The translations under genes were made by a program, and so were the position numbers. DNA of 64,000 nucleotides from Devosia subaequoris (GTDB lineage: Bacteria; Pseudomonadota; Alphaproteobacteria; Rhizobiales; Devosiaceae). Positions within the stretch are counted from its first letter, which is position 1; each line of letters begins with the position of its first letter. A model generated the notes under the pieces. It ran no database searches, was not told the DNA's origin, and saw nothing but the letters and a program-made list of their open reading frames with translations. Location of the stretch: assembly GCF_014197055.1 (NCBI RefSeq), contig NZ_JACIEW010000001.1, positions 620,001 to 684,000 of the forward strand, written 5' to 3'. Of this stretch, positions 3,212-51,575 are shown piece after piece.

Positions 3212-6200
3212 ATGACGACTAGGGTCAAGGCACGATTGCTGGAGCTGGCCAAATCGAAGTCGGCGGGCGATGACAGCCTGCAACGTCTTCTCGTTGCGGC
3301 GATTTCTGCTGCCGACGCGGACGATCTGGAGCGGCAGGATGGCGATGCGCTGATTGCTGCTCTGACCACCAGTCATGAGCGGCTGACGACCACCCCACAG
3401 GGCGCGACGCGTGTTGCAACCACCGCGCCTGCTGGTCCGGGAGAGCCGCTTCTGCTCGATGTCGTCTGCCCCGACATGCCGTTCATCGTGGACAGTGCCC
3501 TGGCCGCATTGCGGGCCATGGGTGGCACAATCCGGATGTTCGCCCATCCTGTACTGCATGTTGCCAATGGCGCCGTAGTGCCCCAGGGGGGCGAGAGCGT
3601 CAGCATGCTGCATATTCAAAGCGACCCGGTCGCCGACGCGAATGCGCTGATCGAGGAAATGCAGACGACGCTGCTGGAGGTGGCGCGCGCCGTTGCCGAC
3701 TGGCAGCCCATGCTGGAGCGGGTGCGGCGCGCATCCGATGGCCTTGGGCACCTCAGGGCCGGGCAGCGCGATGAGCCAGAGCGGTTCATCGAATGGTTGA
3801 TCGAGCACAATTTCACCTTTCTCGGTTGCCGGGAATACCGCCTGGAAGGCGATGTGCTGCTACCTGTGGCGGGCACCGGGCTGGGCATCCTGCGCGACGA
3901 AGACCTCAAGGTCCTCCGCAGCGGCCCGCATTACGTGGAAAGCACGCCGCAATTGGTGGATTTCGTCGAGGGCCCAGAGCCCCTGCTCGTTACCAAGGCC
4001 AATGTGCGTGCCCGCGTGCATCGGCGCACCCATCTGGATTATGTGGGGATCAAACTGTTCGACGCGACAGGGAAAGCGAGTGGCGAACTGCGCGTGGTGG
4101 GACACTATACCGCCCAGGCCTTGGCGACCCCGCACACCGATGTACCGATCATTCGGCGCAAGATCGCCGATGTGATGCGCCAGTCCGGCGTCGATCCGCT
4201 GGGACATGCCGGCCGCACTCTGTTGGGGGCGCTGGAGAGCTATCCCAGGGACGAGCTGTTCCAGATAGATACACCGCAGCTCGCCGAGTTCGCCAGCGCC
4301 ATCGCCGGGCTTTATGATCGGCCCCGCGTGCGGGTGCTGCCGCGGATCGACCGGTTCGACAATTTCGTCTCCATTCTCGTCTATGTGCCCCGCGACCGCT
4401 ATGACGGCGCGGTTCGCGCCCGGATCACGCATTATCTCGCTGATCTCTATGATGGGCGCGTTTCGGCTTACTATCCGCATTTTCCCGAGGGGGATCTGGT
4501 GCGGCTGCACGTGATCATCGGGCGCAATGGCGGGGCAACGCCGCAGCCCGACCGGCGGGCACTGGAGACAGGCGTCGAGGCGCTGACGCATGATTTTTCC
4601 GACATGCTGATGGCGGCGGCCACCGAACAGGCGGCAGTCAGTGACTGGAAACAGGCCTTTTCGGGCGCCTATCAGAGCCGCAATGATGCACAGGACGCAT
4701 TGCGCGATATCGCGGTGTTCGAGGGGCTGGACGATGACGGCGTGGCCATTCGCCTGGTGAGGCGAACCGGCACGGATGGAGCGCTGGGGCTAAAATTCTA
4801 TCACGAAGGCACGGCGATTCCGCTGTCCGATCGCGTGCCCATGCTGGAGCATTTCGGGTTCCGGGTGATCGACGAGCGCACCTACACCATCGTGCCGCGC
4901 GATGGGGTCGAACGTTATCTGCACGATATGGTGCTCGAATTGCACGAGGACGGCAACATCGACGTTCTGGCGCGCGCAGCAGCCATTGAGGCGGGTCTGC
5001 TGGCTGTGTGGATGGGCCAGGCGGAGAGCGACCAGCTCAACGCGCTGGTGACCCTGGCTGGTCTGGAGTGGAGCGACGCTGCCCTGCTACGGGCCTTGTC
5101 GCGCTATTTGCGGCAGGTCGGCACCTCCCATTCGCAGCGCTATATCGCCAGGGCGCTGGTGACGCAGCGGGCGGCTGCGCAAGCGCTGGTGGCACTGTTC
5201 GCTGCGCTGCACGAACCTGACCTGATCGATCGTGACCATGCTGCCGAGGACGCACGCGCGGCCATTGCCGCGGCGCTCGACCAGATATCCTCGCTCGATG
5301 AAGACACCATTGTGCGGCGCTTCTGGAACCTGATTGAAGCGTCGCTGCGCACCAATGCCTGGCAGCGCGACGAAAACGGAAACAGACGGGCTGCGCTCGC
5401 CATCAAATTCGACAGCCACAAGGTCGAGGGCATGATCGCGCCCCGGCCCTATCGCGAAATCTCGGTCTATTCGCCACGTGTGGAAGGGGTGCACCTGCGT
5501 TTTGGCGCCATCGCACGCGGTGGGTTGCGCTGGTCGGACCGCCCCGAGGATTTCCGCACCGAAGTGCTGGGCCTGGTCAAGGCGCAACAGGTCAAGAACG
5601 CGGTGATCGTTCCGGTGGGGGCCAAGGGCGGATTTGTGCCCAAGCGCCTGACGGCGGGGATGGCACGCGAGGCCTGGCTGGAGGAAGGCCGGGACAGCTA
5701 CAAGGTCTTTATCGGCGCCCTGCTCGATGTGACCGACAATCTTGTCGATGGCGTTGTGGTGCCGCCGGCTGATGTGATGCGCCGCGACGGTGACGACCCC
5801 TATCTGGTGGTCGCGGCCGATAAAGGCACGGCGAGCTTTTCCGATATCGCCAACGGCATTGCCACGGCGCGCGACTTCTGGCTGGGCGACGCGTTCGCCT
5901 CGGGTGGCTCTGCGGGTTACGATCACAAGAAGATGGGCATTACGGCGCGCGGCGGTTGGGAGGCCGTGAAGCGCCATTTCCGCGAGATGGATCGCGATAT
6001 CCAGAAAGAACCGTTCACCGTCGTTGGCGTGGGCGACATGAGCGGCGATGTGTTCGGCAATGGGATGTTGCTCAGCCGCGAGATCCGGCTAGTGGCCGCG
6101 TTCGACCATCGGGACATTTTCATCGATCCGGATCCGGATGCTGCGACCAGCTTCGCCGAGCGCGAGCGGCTCTTCCAATTGCCGCGATCGAGCTGGCAGG

Positions 6201-7885
6201 ATTATGAGAAGGGGCTGATATCCGAGGGCGGCGGTGTATTCTCGCGGTCGCTGAAGTCCATCCCGCTCAGCCCGCAAATGCAGGCTGTTCTCGGGCTGGA
6301 AAAGGACGCTGCACCGCCCTCAGAGATTATTCGGGTCATCCTGATGGCACAGGTGGATCTGCTCTGGTTCGGGGGTATCGGCACCTATATCAGGGCGAGT
6401 GACGAAGACGACGCCAAGGTGGGCGACCGTGCCAATGATGCGATCCGCGTCACGGCGGATCAGGTACGCGCCAAGGTGGTTGGCGAAGGCGCCAATCTGG
6501 GTTTGACCCAGCGCGGACGCATTGCCTATGCGCTGAGCGGCGGACGGATCAACACGGACGCGATCGACAATTCGGCCGGGGTGAATTCCTCGGACCTTGA
6601 AGTCAATATCAAGATCGCGCTGGCCTCTGTGGTGGCATCGGGCACTCTACCGATGGCCGAGCGCAACGCTTTCCTGGCGTCGATGACCGAGGAAGTGGCA
6701 GCGCTTTGCCTGCGCAACAACTACTTGCAAACGCTGGCCATATCGCTGGCCGAGCGCGCGGGTCTGGCCGAGTTGCCCGACCATCGCGTGCTGATCGAGG
6801 GGCTCGAGGAGCGTGGCCTGCTCAACCGGGCCGTCGAGTTCCTGCCCAATGATGCCACGCTCGATGCGCGGGCCGCCGAAGGGCGCGGCCTTGTCCGGCC
6901 CGAACTGGCGGTAATCCTGGCCTATGCCAAGTTGACCCTGTTCGACGACCTGCTGGCGGGCACCGCCATCGATGAGCCTTATCTGGCTGGAGAACTGTTC
7001 CGCTACTTCCCGGAGACTCTGCACAAAAGCTACCCAGAGCAGGTCCAGGCCCACCGGCTGAAGCGCGAGGTGATCGCCACGGTGCTGGCCAACGCCATGA
7101 TCAATCGCGGCGGGCCTGCATTCGTCTCTGAACTCACGGCGGCGACCAGTGCCAGCGCAGGCGAAGTAGCCCTAGCTTATGCTGCGGTGCGCGACGCATA
7201 TGGTCTGCGCAGTCTCAATGCTCAGATCGATGCGCTGGACGGCGCCCTGCCCGGGTCAGTGCAATTGGCGCTCTACGCGCAGGTGGAGGCTCTGCTGCGC
7301 CAGGAGGTCCTGTGGTTCCTGCGCAATGCATCGGTTACCAGAGGGCTGGCCGAGCTGGTTGCGCGGCATCGCGACGGTGTAACGCAACTGGCGGCGGCCG
7401 AGGGCCTGCTGCCCGAGGATCAACGCCAAGCGCTTGAGGTGCGGATCAGCGGGTTGATGACGCATGGTGTTCCCGAGGCTCTGGCGCAGCGCATCGGCGC
7501 CCTGCCCTTCCTCAGTCATGCCAGCGACATAGTGCTGGTCGCAGAGCGCGGGAATGTGGATCTGACCAGAGCAGCCAAGGCCTATTTCGGCGTTGCTGGA
7601 TTGTTTGACCTGTTCCGCATTATCGAGGATGGCCGCGCTATCGTTCTGGGCGACCGGTTCGACCGCATGGCGCTGGACCGTGCTTTGGCCAATCTGATGC
7701 GCGCGCTGCGCGACCTGGCAGCCGATGTTCTGGTCGCAGGAAGTGTCGATGACTTCGTGGCGCAGCGTTCTGTTGCGTTGGCGAGGTCGGTGGCGGCGGT
7801 GAAAGAATTGACTGAGGGCGGCATTACCGTCTCGCGGTTGAGCGTGGCTGCGGGTTTGCTGACCGATCTGGCGCGAGAAGGATAA
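3212..7885 (+). CDS. gdhB: NAD-specific glutamate dehydrogenase, large (~180 kDa) type
   Basis: About 1557 residues, matching the giant NAD-GDH class found in many Proteobacteria. It oxidises glutamate to 2-oxoglutarate and ammonium, feeding amino-acid carbon into the TCA cycle. The central catalytic domain shows RWSDRPEDFRTEVLGL and VPVGAKGGF with the catalytic Lys near residue 804, and the dinucleotide-binding segment GVGDMSGDVFGNG is near 940. N-terminal ACT-like regulatory regions and a long C-terminal domain are typical of the class. The frame runs back to 3041, but those extra 57 residues are Cys/Arg-rich and unlike the family; the ATG at 3212, preceded by GGGGAAG, is the likely start. 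No clear terminator follows. Confidence 0.95.
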   Translation: MTTRVKARLLELAKSKSAGDDSLQRLLVAAISAADADDLERQDGDALIAALTTSHERLTTTPQGATRVATTAPAGPGEPLLLDVVCPDMPFIVDSALAALRAMGGTIRMFAHPVLHVANGAVVPQGGESVSMLHIQSDPVADANALIEEMQTTLLEVARAVADWQPMLERVRRASDGLGHLRAGQRDEPERFIEWLIEHNFTFLGCREYRLEGDVLLPVAGTGLGILRDEDLKVLRSGPHYVESTPQLVDFVEGPEPLLVTKANVRARVHRRTHLDYVGIKLFDATGKASGELRVVGHYTAQALATPHTDVPIIRRKIADVMRQSGVDPLGHAGRTLLGALESYPRDELFQIDTPQLAEFASAIAGLYDRPRVRVLPRIDRFDNFVSILVYVPRDRYDGAVRARITHYLADLYDGRVSAYYPHFPEGDLVRLHVIIGRNGGATPQPDRRALETGVEALTHDFSDMLMAAATEQAAVSDWKQAFSGAYQSRNDAQDALRDIAVFEGLDDDGVAIRLVRRTGTDGALGLKFYHEGTAIPLSDRVPMLEHFGFRVIDERTYTIVPRDGVERYLHDMVLELHEDGNIDVLARAAAIEAGLLAVWMGQAESDQLNALVTLAGLEWSDAALLRALSRYLRQVGTSHSQRYIARALVTQRAAAQALVALFAALHEPDLIDRDHAAEDARAAIAAALDQISSLDEDTIVRRFWNLIEASLRTNAWQRDENGNRRAALAIKFDSHKVEGMIAPRPYREISVYSPRVEGVHLRFGAIARGGLRWSDRPEDFRTEVLGLVKAQQVKNAVIVPVGAKGGFVPKRLTAGMAREAWLEEGRDSYKVFIGALLDVTDNLVDGVVVPPADVMRRDGDDPYLVVAADKGTASFSDIANGIATARDFWLGDAFASGGSAGYDHKKMGITARGGWEAVKRHFREMDRDIQKEPFTVVGVGDMSGDVFGNGMLLSREIRLVAAFDHRDIFIDPDPDAATSFAERERLFQLPRSSWQDYEKGLISEGGGVFSRSLKSIPLSPQMQAVLGLEKDAAPPSEIIRVILMAQVDLLWFGGIGTYIRASDEDDAKVGDRANDAIRVTADQVRAKVVGEGANLGLTQRGRIAYALSGGRINTDAIDNSAGVNSSDLEVNIKIALASVVASGTLPMAERNAFLASMTEEVAALCLRNNYLQTLAISLAERAGLAELPDHRVLIEGLEERGLLNRAVEFLPNDATLDARAAEGRGLVRPELAVILAYAKLTLFDDLLAGTAIDEPYLAGELFRYFPETLHKSYPEQVQAHRLKREVIATVLANAMINRGGPAFVSELTAATSASAGEVALAYAAVRDAYGLRSLNAQIDALDGALPGSVQLALYAQVEALLRQEVLWFLRNASVTRGLAELVARHRDGVTQLAAAEGLLPEDQRQALEVRISGLMTHGVPEALAQRIGALPFLSHASDIVLVAERGNVDLTRAAKAYFGVAGLFDLFRIIEDGRAIVLGDRFDRMALDRALANLMRALRDLAADVLVAGSVDDFVAQRSVALARSVAAVKELTEGGITVSRLSVAAGLLTDLAREG

Positions 7886-45900: not shown

Positions 45901-45962
45901 CGCCTTGAAATCGCCGCGCCAGCGCCCTTAATCGGAATGAGGAATGTGAAAGGTCAGACTTG

Positions 45963-46649
45963 ATGGGCTTTATCGGCATCGCACTGATCATTGCTGCGGG
46001 CATCGTGCTGCTGATCAGTGCCGACGTCGGGAGCATGGTCGGGCTGAACCAAATGCAGACGGCGCAATTGGTGCCGCTACTGGTGCTGCTGATCATCTTT
46101 GCCGGAGGCCTGTTCACCCGACGTCACCGCGCCTCTGAACTGCTGGGCGGCTTGCTGCTTTGGGTCGGCCTTTTTGGCGTGGCCATGGTGACCTATGCCT
46201 ATCGCGACGAATTGCTGGGTGTTGTGGGCCGGGTCGCTGGAGAATTGCAGCCTGGCGTAGCTCTGGTGGACAGCGAAGCGGGCACTGCGACCTTCCGGCG
46301 CGGCATTGGCGGTCACTTCGAGGTCAATGCCACGATCAATGGCCATACCACCCCGATGATATTCGACACGGGCGCGAGCGCTGTGGTGCTGACCATTGCA
46401 GATGCAGAGGCCGCCGGTGTGAACGTCGAGGGGCTGCGCTACAGCGTTCCGGTATCGACGGCCAATGGCCAGGGGCTCGCCGCCCGGACGCGGCTCGACA
46501 GCATTGAAGTGGGCGGCATCATGCGGCGGAACCTGACCGCCTTTGTCACCGAGCCAGGAGCGCTGGAGACCAGCCTGCTGGGCATGACGTTTCTTGAGAC
46601 CCTCAGCCGATACAGCGTGACGCAGAATTCTCTGGAACTGGTGGATTGA
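45963..46649 (+). CDS. membrane-anchored retropepsin-like aspartic protease (TIGR02281 family)
   Basis: Two hundred and twenty-eight residues. Three hydrophobic segments occupy the first ~80 residues; the rest is a single-lobe aspartic protease with the catalytic DTG at Asp135 (MIFDTGASAVVLT), a flap-like STANGQGLAART, and the closing LLGMTFLETLSRY. Such clan AA proteases act as dimers, here facing the periplasm. Substrates are unknown. The ATG at 45963 is used rather than the TTG before it. It follows cobS by about 60 bases, so they may share a transcript. Confidence 0.9.
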   Translation: MGFIGIALIIAAGIVLLISADVGSMVGLNQMQTAQLVPLLVLLIIFAGGLFTRRHRASELLGGLLLWVGLFGVAMVTYAYRDELLGVVGRVAGELQPGVALVDSEAGTATFRRGIGGHFEVNATINGHTTPMIFDTGASAVVLTIADAEAAGVNVEGLRYSVPVSTANGQGLAARTRLDSIEVGGIMRRNLTAFVTEPGALETSLLGMTFLETLSRYSVTQNSLELVD

Positions 46650-46684: not shown

Positions 46685-48403
46685 TCAGCTCACCGGGAAC
46701 TGGGTGGCCTGTCCCGCCACAATGTACCAAGTCACGAATAGCGCGTTTATGAACGCTCCCGGCAGATAACTGCCGGTTCGCCGATAGGTGAAGGTGGACA
46801 GGAAGGCGATGATGGTCATCAGTGGCAGGAACTGGATGGCGATCACCGTGTTCAGCGGTTCCTCGATGCTGAACAGATGACCGGCAAACAGCAACCAGCC
46901 ATACTGGAATGCCAGGAAGACCAGAAAGCCCAGCGCCAGTGCGCCGATATTGGACAGATACTGCTTGAGGCGGCTGTCCCCGGCCACCGTCAGTCCGGTA
47001 TGCAGGCCGCGTAGCGCCAGCACGAAGAACAGGGTGAACGGCACCAGATAGACCAGCGCAATCTTGGCCTGAACCAGGCTGAGGGGCTTGAGCGCCACAA
47101 CCCAGAAGCGGAAGTCGATCTTGAAGAGGAAATCCGCTGCCAGGACAAACAGGTAGCCGATGCCGACCGTCGCCAGTGCGATCAGGATAGAACCGGAGAT
47201 ATTGCCCCGGGCGTTGACCTTTTCACCCCGCAGCACAAGTCCGACCAGGAAGACGATAAGGCCGTTCAGCACCGCCCAGAAGGCGATCTGGCTGGTAATC
47301 GTCTGCGGCAGCAGCGCCGAGGCCGGGAGAAGCTGCTCACCCCAGCCGAAGAACAGGTAGTAGGTCAGCACCGGGACAAAGGCGCTGATTGCAAAGCCGA
47401 GCCACCACTTGGCACCACGCTCCGAATGCGCCGCCTTGACCGGCGTGTCGCGCAGATGGGCGAAGGCCTGAGCGCCCAGTAGCGCCTGAAACGTGCCAGC
47501 CAGCAGCACCACGAAACCGACCAGCGCGATCAGCGTGCCAATTTCCTTCCACAACCAGATCTGGTCGGAAGACGGCAAGGGTTCGGCCCCATCCAGTGTC
47601 TCGGCGAACCAGTCGATGGAGTAACCGATGGCTTCGGGCGAGATGTGATCGCCCGGATGGGTGGTGTTGGGCATTTGGAGAATGCGGGCCGTGCCCTGGG
47701 CGATATCGCCATAGACCTGGCCAGGCACCACGGCCTGATCGGTGCCAAAGACCGCCTGCAGCTTGGGGCTGTCAGCAACATCCTGGGCCCGGTCGACATT
47801 CCACATCAGCTGCGAGAATTCGTCGTATTTGGAGAAGACGACCGCAAGATTGCGGGGCCATTCCGGGGTCCCTTCCATGGCGAAGGGTGCGCCGGTGCTC
47901 GAGCCTTCGAGCACGAGGGACTTGTAGGCGTCAGGCATGGTGGCCGCCGCCGCTAGCACGGTCCAGCCGCCCATGGAGTGGCCTTCAAGGCCAATATTGT
48001 CGGTATCGACGATGTCGAGACCGCGCAGATAGGCCAGTGCGCCGGGCCCGCCAAAGCCGTTAGCGAAGGCCGGACCGTCGGAATAGCCATGTCCGGACTG
48101 GTCGAGAGCCAGGACGACATAGCCGCGCCGCGCATATTCTATCGCAAAGCCGGACTGGGTCTCGCGGCTATTGATATAGCCGTGCACCGCCAGGATCGCC
48201 GGGGCCTTGTTTTCCGCCGAGACGCCCGGAGGCACATAGAGCAGGCCGCTCAGGACCTGGCCGTTATTGCCGTTGAAACGGATATCGCGAATGGATATGC
48301 CGCCTGATGTCTGAATGAAGTGCGCAAGCAATGCGCCGATGAGAATGATGACCCATCCTAGGTGGAACAGGCGAAGGTTCTTGTTCAGCAATTTTGCCCC
48401 CAT
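46685..48403 (-). CDS. alpha/beta hydrolase fused to a C-terminal multi-span membrane domain
   Basis: Five hundred and seventy-two residues. One membrane helix (about residues 14-32) leads to an extracytoplasmic alpha/beta hydrolase of dienelactone-hydrolase/S9 type: AILAVHGYINSRET, LDQSGHGYSDG, and the nucleophile elbow GHSMGGW, with a likely catalytic His in TTHPGDH. From about residue 290 onward there are roughly eight hydrophobic spans with no second enzyme motif that I recognise. The hydrolase may act on lipids or membrane-associated esters, and the C-terminal domain could be a permease or an anchor. The fusion is unusual; function unknown. Confidence 0.82.
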   Translation of the reverse strand: MGAKLLNKNLRLFHLGWVIILIGALLAHFIQTSGGISIRDIRFNGNNGQVLSGLLYVPPGVSAENKAPAILAVHGYINSRETQSGFAIEYARRGYVVLALDQSGHGYSDGPAFANGFGGPGALAYLRGLDIVDTDNIGLEGHSMGGWTVLAAAATMPDAYKSLVLEGSSTGAPFAMEGTPEWPRNLAVVFSKYDEFSQLMWNVDRAQDVADSPKLQAVFGTDQAVVPGQVYGDIAQGTARILQMPNTTHPGDHISPEAIGYSIDWFAETLDGAEPLPSSDQIWLWKEIGTLIALVGFVVLLAGTFQALLGAQAFAHLRDTPVKAAHSERGAKWWLGFAISAFVPVLTYYLFFGWGEQLLPASALLPQTITSQIAFWAVLNGLIVFLVGLVLRGEKVNARGNISGSILIALATVGIGYLFVLAADFLFKIDFRFWVVALKPLSLVQAKIALVYLVPFTLFFVLALRGLHTGLTVAGDSRLKQYLSNIGALALGFLVFLAFQYGWLLFAGHLFSIEEPLNTVIAIQFLPLMTIIAFLSTFTYRRTGSYLPGAFINALFVTWYIVAGQATQFPVS

Positions 48404-50201: not shown

Positions 50202-51575
50202 ATGACCCAGACCCCTCCCCGCCATGTTGCCGTCATCGATATCGGCAAGACCAACGCCAAGGTGGTGCTTATCGACAGCACCACTGGCGCGCAGATTGCC
50301 GCAGAGGGTGTGCCGAATACCATCCGCACGGACGGGCCTTATCCCCATGCCGATGTCGAGATGCTGTGGGGTTTCATTTTGAGGGCATTGAAGGGGCTGC
50401 ACCAAGACCATGGGCTCGAGGGCATCTCCATCACCACGCATGGGGCCACAGGCGCGCTGCTGGCGGGCGACGAACTGGCCCTGCCCGTACTCGATTATGA
50501 ATTTGACGGACCCGAGGCTGTCGCAGCCGACTATGCGGGCGTCCGCCCTGGCTTCAGCGAGAGCCTGTCCCCTCGTCTCCCAAACGGGCTCAACTGGGGG
50601 GCGCAGCTTTATTGGCAATCCCGAGAGTTTTCCGAGGATTTCGCCAGGGTGACGGCCATTGTGCCCTACCCGCAGTACTGGGCATGGCGACTGACAGGTG
50701 CGCTGGCGAGCGAGGTGACATCGCTCGGTTGCCATACCGATCTCTGGGCGCCGGATCGCGGCGATTTTTCCAGCATGGTCGACGCGCTGGGCTGGCGCAA
50801 CCTGTTTCCGGGTGTGCGGCCGGCTGCATCAGTCATCGGCACGCTTCAGGCGGACATTGTCTCGGAAACCGGATTGTCGACCGACACGCCGGTAACCTGT
50901 GGCATTCACGACTCCAATGCTTCGCTGGTGCCGCATCTGGGCCATCATGAGGTGCCATTCACCATCGTCTCCACCGGCACCTGGTCGATCCTGATGACGG
51001 TGGGCGGCGATACCGGGGCGCTCGATCCGGGCAGGGATAGTCTCGCCAATGTCGATGCCTATGGCCGGGCGGTACCTACGGCGCGTTTCATGGGCGGGCG
51101 GGAATTCGACACTTTAGTGCCGGACATCGCAGAGCCGACCGAGGCAGATCTGGCGTTTGTGCTAGCCAATGACGTACAGGCGCTGCCGAGTTTTGCGCCT
51201 GGCGTCGGGCCATTTGGCGACAAGACCGGGCGCTGGAGCTGTGATCCGGACAGTCTGACGCCTGGTCAGCGCACCGCGGCGGCCTCGCTTTATCTGGCGC
51301 TGATGGCGCGTGCCTGCCTGGACCTGTGCGGTCTGGGCCGCAGCATTACGCTGGAAGGGCCGTTGGCACGCAACCGGCTGTTCGGGCAGGCCCTGGCGCA
51401 ACTGAGCGGGGTGCCGGTGTTCGCGTCGGGCGATGCGACGGGAACAAGCCTGGGGGCCAGCCTGTTGTTCGGTGGGGTCTTGCCTGAAGCCGGGGGCAGC
51501 CATGCGCTTGTCCCCCTGCAAGCTGAGGGGCTTGCGGCCTATATTGAAAGGTGGAGAGAGCGCGCACAAGAGTGA
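50202..51575 (+). CDS. FGGY family carbohydrate kinase
   Basis: Four hundred and fifty-seven residues with the two-lobed FGGY fold. The N-terminal phosphate loop is VIDIGKTNAKVVLID, the catalytic segment is TCGIHDSNASLVPH, and the C-terminal lobe has ITLEGPLARNRLFGQAL and GDATGTSLGASLL. It phosphorylates a sugar or sugar alcohol with ATP. The sequence is nearer to the rhizobial fuculokinase/rhamnulokinase-like group than to xylulokinase or glycerol kinase, but the substrate cannot be fixed. No sugar transporter or isomerase gene is adjacent. Confidence 0.88.
   Translation: MTQTPPRHVAVIDIGKTNAKVVLIDSTTGAQIAAEGVPNTIRTDGPYPHADVEMLWGFILRALKGLHQDHGLEGISITTHGATGALLAGDELALPVLDYEFDGPEAVAADYAGVRPGFSESLSPRLPNGLNWGAQLYWQSREFSEDFARVTAIVPYPQYWAWRLTGALASEVTSLGCHTDLWAPDRGDFSSMVDALGWRNLFPGVRPAASVIGTLQADIVSETGLSTDTPVTCGIHDSNASLVPHLGHHEVPFTIVSTGTWSILMTVGGDTGALDPGRDSLANVDAYGRAVPTARFMGGREFDTLVPDIAEPTEADLAFVLANDVQALPSFAPGVGPFGDKTGRWSCDPDSLTPGQRTAAASLYLALMARACLDLCGLGRSITLEGPLARNRLFGQALAQLSGVPVFASGDATGTSLGASLLFGGVLPEAGGSHALVPLQAEGLAAYIERWRERAQE

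Follow-up and report, generated by a model that had tools for sequence, protein, structure and literature searches.

The window analysed here is a stretch of 64,000 nucleotides from the genome of Devosia subaequoris (contig NZ_JACIEW010000001.1, positions 620,001 to 684,000). An open reading frame with an ATG start at positions 46685-48403 of the window encodes a product that joins an alpha/beta hydrolase to a membrane half (Table 1). The N-terminal helix and eight-span domain described in the initial annotation are both real. Family-averaged hydropathy showed one N-terminal segment (core at residues 13-27) and, beyond residue 290, eight main ones, and AlphaFold2 modelled the full-length protein with a mean pLDDT of 91.5 and a pTM of 0.91, with helices at residues 2-31, 283-309, 331-346/348-358, 368-390, 402-427, 443-470, 478-507, 516-543 and 547-564. 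The C-terminal half modelled alone gave a pLDDT of 90.2 and a pTM of 0.90. The hydrolase domain probably lies on the outer face of the cytoplasmic membrane, where the initial annotation had also placed it, and the loop charges fit this predicted topology: the mean number of Lys/Arg per loop was 2.1, 3.0, 3.8 and 1.6 for loops assigned to the inside and 0.5, 0.2 and 0.03 for those assigned to the outside, two loops being exceptions, namely the outer hairpin at 428-442 (2.4) and an inner loop of three residues at 544-546 (0.3).

Table 1. Features of the fusion gene and two nearby genes, in window positions. AF2, AlphaFold2.
Feature	Position	Strand	Basis
Whole gene, alpha/beta hydrolase and eight-helix membrane domain, 572 aa	46685..48403	-	ORF, 38-row family alignment
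N-terminal membrane helix, about residues 7-31	48311..48385	-	Hydropathy, AF2 helix 2-31
Alpha/beta hydrolase domain, about residues 37-272	47588..48295	-	Pfam and PDB profile matches
Nucleophile elbow GHSMGGW, residues 141-147, Ser143	47963..47983	-	G141, S143 and G145 in 38/38 rows
Glu195, proposed catalytic acid after strand 185-189	47819..47821	-	38/38 rows; role inferred from position
His249, proposed catalytic histidine	47657..47659	-	38/38 rows; role inferred from position
C-terminal membrane half, residues 276-572, eight helices	46688..47578	-	AF2 of half alone
CPBP/Rce1/APH-1-like part, about residues 331-564, helices 2-8 of half	46712..47413	-	VIA-align
Outer beta-hairpin KIDFRFWVVALKPLS, residues 428-442, D430 and invariant R432	47078..47122	-	AF2, alignment, loop-charge analysis
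RRTGSYLPGAFIN, residues 541-553, aligned with last CPBP motif	46745..46783	-	hhalign, column count
Clan AA aspartic protease gene, TIGR02281 family	45960..46649	+	4.2e-36
FGGY-family kinase gene	50202..51575	+	TIGR02628, 2.7e-13, under cut-off

The coverage of the protein by Pfam and NCBIfam was limited to the hydrolase part, where Pfam matched Abhydrolase_1 (3.5e-13; 50.2 bits against a curated cut-off of 25.8), Hydrolase_4 (2.5e-11) and AXE1 (3.9e-7). By profile, the closest solved chains were the MHETase MHT043-5 (2.3e-21) and PET46 (8b4u; 3.1e-20), followed by feruloyl and acetyl-xylan esterases, other esterases and TTL lipase, one entry of which contains a monoacylglycerol intermediate. 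Foldseek likewise matched the hydrolase to PET46 and TTL lipase, at E values of about 1e-7. TTL lipase, PET46, MHT043-5 and the feruloyl and acetyl-xylan esterases have the fold and the GxSxG motif in common with the Devosia hydrolase, and as far as is known they are soluble enzymes. The Devosia protein differs from Hydrolase_4- and AXE1-type enzymes in its attached membrane half and in having Glu195 as the proposed acid. Of the GHSMGGW motif from which a serine hydrolase had been predicted, G141, S143 and G145 are kept in all 38 aligned members, and S143, E195 and H249 are likewise each invariant. We propose these three residues as the candidate catalytic triad because of their order along the chain, read against the strand order of the AlphaFold2 model. 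The further prediction of a serine hydrolase that acts outside on a lipid or ester is consistent with these domain matches and, in some lineages, with glycerol- and monoacylglycerol-lipase-type gene neighbours.

The gene occurs once in its own genome and at full length in 18 of 75 genomes of the genus Devosia, its own included. Another Devosia genome (G057) carries a piece of the gene at a contig end, and in G074 only the last 35 codons are left, at 89% identity and with an in-frame stop (L100, G074:C1:901366-901470). The G074 fragment resembles a decayed copy, and the gene may therefore be lost at times. A D. marina protein with 97% identity is the closest relative named. In one scan, 84,980 species genomes yielded 122 places with a relative, and the best 80 of these 122 were 50-97% identical and came from Devosia, Bradyrhizobium, Limimaricola, Maritalea, Sphingomonas, Spirochaetes, Chloroflexi, a Gemmatimonadetes MAG and others. 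Since the gene is full length in 18 of 75 Devosia genomes and has relatives at 50-64% identity in several phyla, it is not a chance ORF. We aligned 38 full-length members from six phyla, with identities down to 24%.

Does the membrane half ever occur with another partner, a question that the initial annotation had suggested asking? With the C-terminal half alone as query, matches were found in 9 of 398 Pseudomonadota, 8 of 301 Chloroflexota and 12 of 247 Spirochaetota genomes, as well as in 11 of 11 chosen carrier genomes, three of which recur in the Chloroflexota and Spirochaetota searches. These amounted to 37 different matches, one of them (G477) with an in-frame stop. All 37 lie in open frames of at least 571 amino acids, and thus no free-standing membrane half was seen. 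Hydrolase_4 matched all 38 aligned full-length members at E values up to 10, and the full-length profile detects a member in each of the 126 loci of our neighbour survey. Members of this uncharacterised fusion family are widespread, occurring in Alphaproteobacteria, Spirochaetota, Chloroflexota, Gemmatimonadetes, Deinococcus, Haloarcula and Bacillota. Word searches of the literature, mostly outside subscription papers, returned no account of an alpha/beta hydrolase fused to a membrane domain.

The copies of Maritalea, Deinococcus ficus, Haloarcula and Jeotgalibaca are plasmid-borne, and the Jeotgalibaca copy is flanked by transposase genes (L113, 4115-4270 and 7154-8965); plasmid location and flanking transposases are signs of mobility. 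The Gemmatimonadetes relative (L167/L081) is interrupted by one in-frame TGA between frames 5965-7149 and 7153-7689 of L081, which may reflect sequencing error, decay or recoding. A relative with 26% identity over 95% of the query is present on MT838697.1 (L218), an unverified 6.4-kb faecal scaffold labelled 'Bacteriophage sp.', which may be a mislabelled bacterial contig.

What is the membrane half? The initial annotation saw no known signature in it, which is true for Pfam and NCBIfam: searches with the whole protein and with the C-terminal half found no family above cut-off for the half, and known transporter profiles in the two databases gave no match above cut-off either. When 31 C-terminal halves were compared with Pfam, only scattered weak matches appeared; one half touched EamA at 0.05, and DUF412 (6 of 31 halves, best 0.018) and DUF7318 (4 of 31, best 0.0085) were set aside as weak. 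The CPBP family PF02517 was found in none of the 31 halves at E values up to 10, and it was absent among the 25 of 46 families listed for the 38 full-length members. A search of PDB sequences with the C-half profile at E values up to 10 reached no chain of 6u0o, and its single match, at 1.7, was taken as chance. Foldseek found no match for the C-half model in the PDB (best E 0.42), and its best 50 rows, which included GPCRs, TMEM16 and CitS, had TM-scores of 0.25 or less and were regarded as noise.

Where the Foldseek search proposed in the initial annotation gave nothing, a second structural comparison and profile alignments did give a lead. We ran VIA-align over the 1000 best Foldseek chains. 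Its best alignment was to chain A of 6u0o, the SagB-SpdC complex, over residues 53-291 of the C-half model (204 residues, rmsd 4.2 A), with a Z of 9.7, although for helical bundles a Z under about 13 may reflect a mere common arrangement. Chain A appears to be SpdC, judging from its length of 248, from the span that aligned (6-223) and from the eight helices reported within SpdC 1-252 (PMC5854430). Searches with E. coli FlgJ, which has a SagB-type domain, did not reach 6u0o, nor did two CPBP profiles. Ranks 2-4 were chain C of the gamma-secretase entries 8oqy (Z 5.7), 8oqz (Z 5.6) and 5a63 (Z 5.0). Chain C of 5a63 is given as APH-1A in PMC7387801, and from the entry titles chain C of 8oqy and of 8oqz would also be APH-1. 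As SpdC is described as a CPBP protein that lacks the key protease residues (PMC7387801) and APH-1 as a recognised relative of the Rce1 fold (PMC6588880), the four leading rows appear to belong to one superfamily. The other rows, among them an ECF S-component, YiiP and bile acid transporters, had Z scores of 4.7 and down and were rejected as ranking below SpdC and APH-1. Rce1 itself (4cad) was not in the list, which excludes nothing.

Profile comparisons pointed in the same direction. With hhalign, the probability of a match between the family and CPBP was 2% with a profile of 9 CPBPs, 27% with 41 and 65% with 21 (P 5.9e-5), and all three runs placed RRTGSYLPGAFIN opposite the last CPBP motif. 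Searched against the PDB, the 21-row profile picks up RCE1 (4cad) at 3.1e-14 and the 9-row profile no chain. Against the 41-CPBP profile, the C-terminal half scored 33.35, compared with 12.5-20.8 for four unrelated polytopic families and 15-16 for reversed decoys. None of 160 block shuffles of 4, 8 or 12 columns reached this score (best 32.33); 9 of 60 shuffles of 25 columns did, and blocks of that size can carry the last motif whole. In its modelled helix arrangement and in the RTGSxxxxxxxH/N region, which falls in the last core helices, the Devosia half appears to resemble CPBP, Rce1 and APH-1 proteins. Thus, while the initial annotation could not place the half in a known transporter family, we can place it by fold, with moderate confidence, among CPBP/Rce1/APH-1 proteins.

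Unlike PF02517 proteins, members of the family lack the residues of a CPBP protease. The EExxxR motif is present in 0 of 38 members and in 39 of 41 CPBPs. The two conserved intramembrane histidines of CPBP are not conserved here, the H468 column being the only one in which histidine reaches half of the rows (20/38). At the position of the last-motif histidine, 20 of the 38 members have N and the others C, S, A, G and other residues. Could the half still work as an intramembrane protease by means of an active site that has been rebuilt? The CPBP-like fold and the conserved polar residues D430, R432, Y452 and Y501 would suit such an enzyme, but with EExxxR missing throughout, a sole half-filled histidine column and a last motif whose commonest residues are not histidine, we consider this very improbable. 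We think it likely, by a comfortable measure, that the half is a divergent CPBP-like domain that is proteolytically dead. The fusion to the hydrolase is found in every member sampled, with the candidate catalytic residues invariant and the protease motif absent.

Conservation in the membrane half leans toward the side on which the hydrolase is predicted to lie. Twenty positions are invariant in the 38 rows, three of them in the membrane half (W376, R432 and Y452). Of the 30 best conserved positions of the half, 16 are in its predicted outer half; 16 of the 30 are polar or aromatic, and 13 of these lie there (binomial P 0.010). With loops included, the outer side is more conserved overall (P 0.002); within the membrane helices alone, conservation of the outer half is not significantly higher (P 0.19). 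This pattern suits a domain that cooperates with the hydrolase, without proving it. Alternatively, the half could be an elaborate anchor that plays no part in catalysis, its likeness to CPBP proteins being convergence of helix bundles. The modest profile scores, the failure of Foldseek to find a match and a VIA-align Z under the tool's bar for helical bundles are all compatible with an anchor. However, the lone N-terminal helix would do as an anchor, three residues of the half do not vary across 38 rows from six phyla, and 13 of 16 conserved polar or aromatic residues lie in the predicted outer half, on the hydrolase side, all of which makes a mere anchor unlikely. Because the best structural alignments are to SpdC and APH-1, with weak to fair profile support for CPBP, we favor a scaffolding or substrate-positioning role for the dead CPBP-like domain over a role as a transporter.

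What might the hydrolase cleave? We surveyed gene neighbours in 126 of 217 loci, a set from which L082-L101, L114-L142 (short flanks, mostly repeats) and L168-L209 (CPBP loci) were left out and in which some places are represented by two loci (such as L079 and L152). Six loci have GlpK- or GlpD-type genes next to the hydrolase gene, namely five of the ten Chloroflexota loci and Deinococcus ficus. In D. ficus the order is hydrolase, glpK and the glycerol-3-phosphate dehydrogenase/oxidase gene glpD. In the Chloroflexota (L143-L152), the adjoining genes are on the same strand, in the orders hydrolase-glpD-glpK (L150), hydrolase-glpK (L152), hydrolase-glpD (L146) and glpD-hydrolase (L148 and L149). 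GlpK was above curated cut-offs in L150 and L152. GlpD was below them in L150 (best model E 1e-83) and in L146, L148 (a short frame of 464 amino acids) and L149, where the best-model E values were about 1e-100 to 1e-112. At an E value of 1e-12, no glpK or glpD gene was found in the remaining five Chloroflexota loci, one of which (L151) adjoins a CoA-transferase gene, in the 13 Spirochaetota loci (L153-L165, which include short ones), in the Bradyrhizobium loci or in the Haloarcula locus. In Jeotgalibaca, glpK, dhaKLM and a glycerol dehydrogenase gene are found within about 3.3 kb, and transposase genes intervene. One alphaproteobacterial locus (L213) has GlpK- and GlpD-like genes upstream, and we did not count it as a glycerol operon because these genes score below curated cut-offs and opposite-strand ORFs intervene. 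A Rieske-domain gene with a LigXa-type C-terminal domain lies downstream of the Chloroflexota relative in L148 (6665-8071, minus strand); it is a possible hint of aromatic-ester substrates there.

No glycerol gene adjoins the Devosia loci, and the substrate is therefore least certain for Devosia itself. In five of these loci, the window's own included, the neighbour is dusA, a housekeeping gene that offers no clue. The FGGY-family kinase in the window is not GlpK; a similar gene is found close to the hydrolase relative in L008 and, by eye, in L047. The clan AA aspartic protease gene lies tail to tail with the hydrolase gene, and its product has N-terminal membrane segments by eye; L047 and L008 hold similar genes, again judged by eye. 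Closest to the Devosia pair in the 38-row tree are L006 and four loci from Limimaricola (two) and Maritalea (two). In these four loci, LysR and a TRAP transporter of three genes come before the hydrolase. Beyond the LysR gene, three of these four loci carry a gene for a monoacylglycerol-lipase-type hydrolase. The product in L004 matches LipS at 2.6e-50, a thermostable monoacylglycerol lipase at 1.8e-47 and monoacylglycerol lipases down to 8e-44, and those in L005 and L007 resemble it. In the fourth locus the corresponding place, beyond the fetched stretch, is annotated as an alpha/beta fold hydrolase. In L006, from a gammaproteobacterial MAG, a beta-lactamase/esterase-family gene (PF00144, 4.7e-73; 4616-5959, plus strand) directly precedes the relative. 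Altogether, the neighbours in some other microbes hint at the breakdown of glycerol-containing fats.

Glycerol kinase was also looked for in whole carrier genomes. We tested 20 of them (its own, 10 Chloroflexota, 7 of 13 Spirochaetota carriers and 2 others), and all 20 encode GlpK over the curated cut-off, compared with 34 of 61 genomes in the Chloroflexota sample and 39 of 60 in that of Spirochaetota. Within Chloroflexota, GlpK was present in 10 of 10 carriers and in 32 of 59 genomes without carriers (P 0.004), and within Spirochaetota in 7 of 7 and 37 of 58 (P 0.055), with genome size and completeness free to vary in both comparisons. Loci linked to glycerol occupy five places of the 38-row tree, although some forks between them are open and the five places need not mean five origins.

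By sequence, the hydrolase comes closest to enzymes that act on polyesters and aromatic esters, which counts against a glyceride. The substrate could thus be a non-glycerol ester (aromatic, polyester, sugar acetyl or xenobiotic), with the glycerol neighbours limited to particular lineages. The position of MHT043-5 and PET46 as the best solved relatives, followed by feruloyl and acetyl-xylan esterases, favors such a substrate, as does the lack of adjoining GlpK or GlpD genes in alphaproteobacterial loci, those of L213 being of a distant type and not adjoining. Against it, TTL lipase is among the solved relatives and has been captured in one entry with a monoacylglycerol intermediate, the glycerol links are scattered over five places of the tree, and a monoacylglycerol-lipase-type neighbour is present in the clade next to Devosia. 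We regard non-glycerol esters as a tentative possibility, on the unlikely side. An acylglycerol or other glycerol ester would, from the neighbours, be the most likely substrate.

The initial annotation proposed that the fusion couples hydrolysis to transport, and we found no direct support for this. In such a scheme the eight helices would form a permease or channel for a product (glycerol, monoacylglycerol or the acid), and hydrolysis outside would be coupled to uptake by the same chain. The glycerol genes that adjoin in six loci would fit, as would the fact that a MIP-family glycerol channel is present in only 9 of the 20 carriers and absent in 11, among them G476 with its hydrolase-glpK pair, though GlpK is universal in them. 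However, because some of the genomes are drafts or MAGs, the absence of MIP is weak evidence, and among the five Chloroflexota with the glycerol pairing only G476 is without a channel, the other four (G520, G624, G640 and G666) having one. Moreover, no Pfam or NCBIfam transporter family matches the C-terminal half above cut-off, and the best structural match of the half is a scaffold fold. We therefore consider a permease quite unlikely. A more specific version, in which an outward lipase cuts acylglycerol and the fused pseudo-protease domain, as a pore that handles lipid or product, lets glycerol or monoacylglycerol reach cytoplasmic GlpK by way of the same chain, is a long shot. If true, the same-chain pore would represent hydrolysis-coupled uptake by a CPBP-fold domain, which to our knowledge is known nowhere else.

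How would a dead CPBP-like domain serve a hydrolase? The S. aureus peptidoglycan release complex SagB-SpdC (LyrA), the source of our best structural alignment (6u0o), offers a model. SpdC has eight predicted membrane segments (PMC5854430), and it is reported to scaffold the membrane-associated hydrolase SagB and to orient the SagB active site (PMC10581084, PMC12272431). The Devosia protein resembles this complex in its tethered and, by prediction, outward hydrolase and in an eight-helix domain that lacks protease residues and has, with moderate confidence, the CPBP fold. It differs in being one chain rather than two, and in that SagB is a glucosaminidase acting on glycan, whereas the Devosia enzyme is an alpha/beta hydrolase. 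The LnsA-LnsB system for lipoprotein N-acylation also teams a remote-CPBP membrane protein with diverged motifs with a separate enzyme, as described in PMC7387801. It consists of two genes and carries out acyl transfer with an NlpC/P60 enzyme, and it has no alpha/beta hydrolase fusion.

Because the parts are like those of SagB-SpdC, with a tether helix, an outward hydrolase and a dead-CPBP-type domain in one chain, we propose that the protein is a single-chain membrane hydrolase of acylglycerols or other esters, positioned by its pseudo-CPBP domain as SpdC positions SagB. We give this proposal an even chance. The N-terminal helix and membrane domain, both evident in the architecture, would hold the serine ester hydrolase on the outer face if the predicted topology is correct. 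The membrane half, a probable CPBP/Rce1/APH-1-fold domain that has diverged and lacks the protease motif, would orient the hydrolase, and probably its lipid substrate too, at the membrane surface. Glycerol released from the substrate may then pass to GlpK and GlpD, and the acid may enter by a route of its own, such as the TRAP transporter of Limimaricola and Maritalea.

Proteins with the CPBP fold that lack protease residues, such as SpdC, LnsB and APH-1, are thought to serve membrane enzymes, each as a separate subunit. Fusion to a quite different hydrolase over several phyla would make hydrolase scaffolding a general use of the CPBP fold. If our proposal is true, this family would provide a single-chain system for testing CPBP-fold scaffolding. 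It would also give a suggested function to a widespread gene that is annotated only as 'alpha/beta hydrolase', and may point to a membrane-bound route of acylglycerol use.
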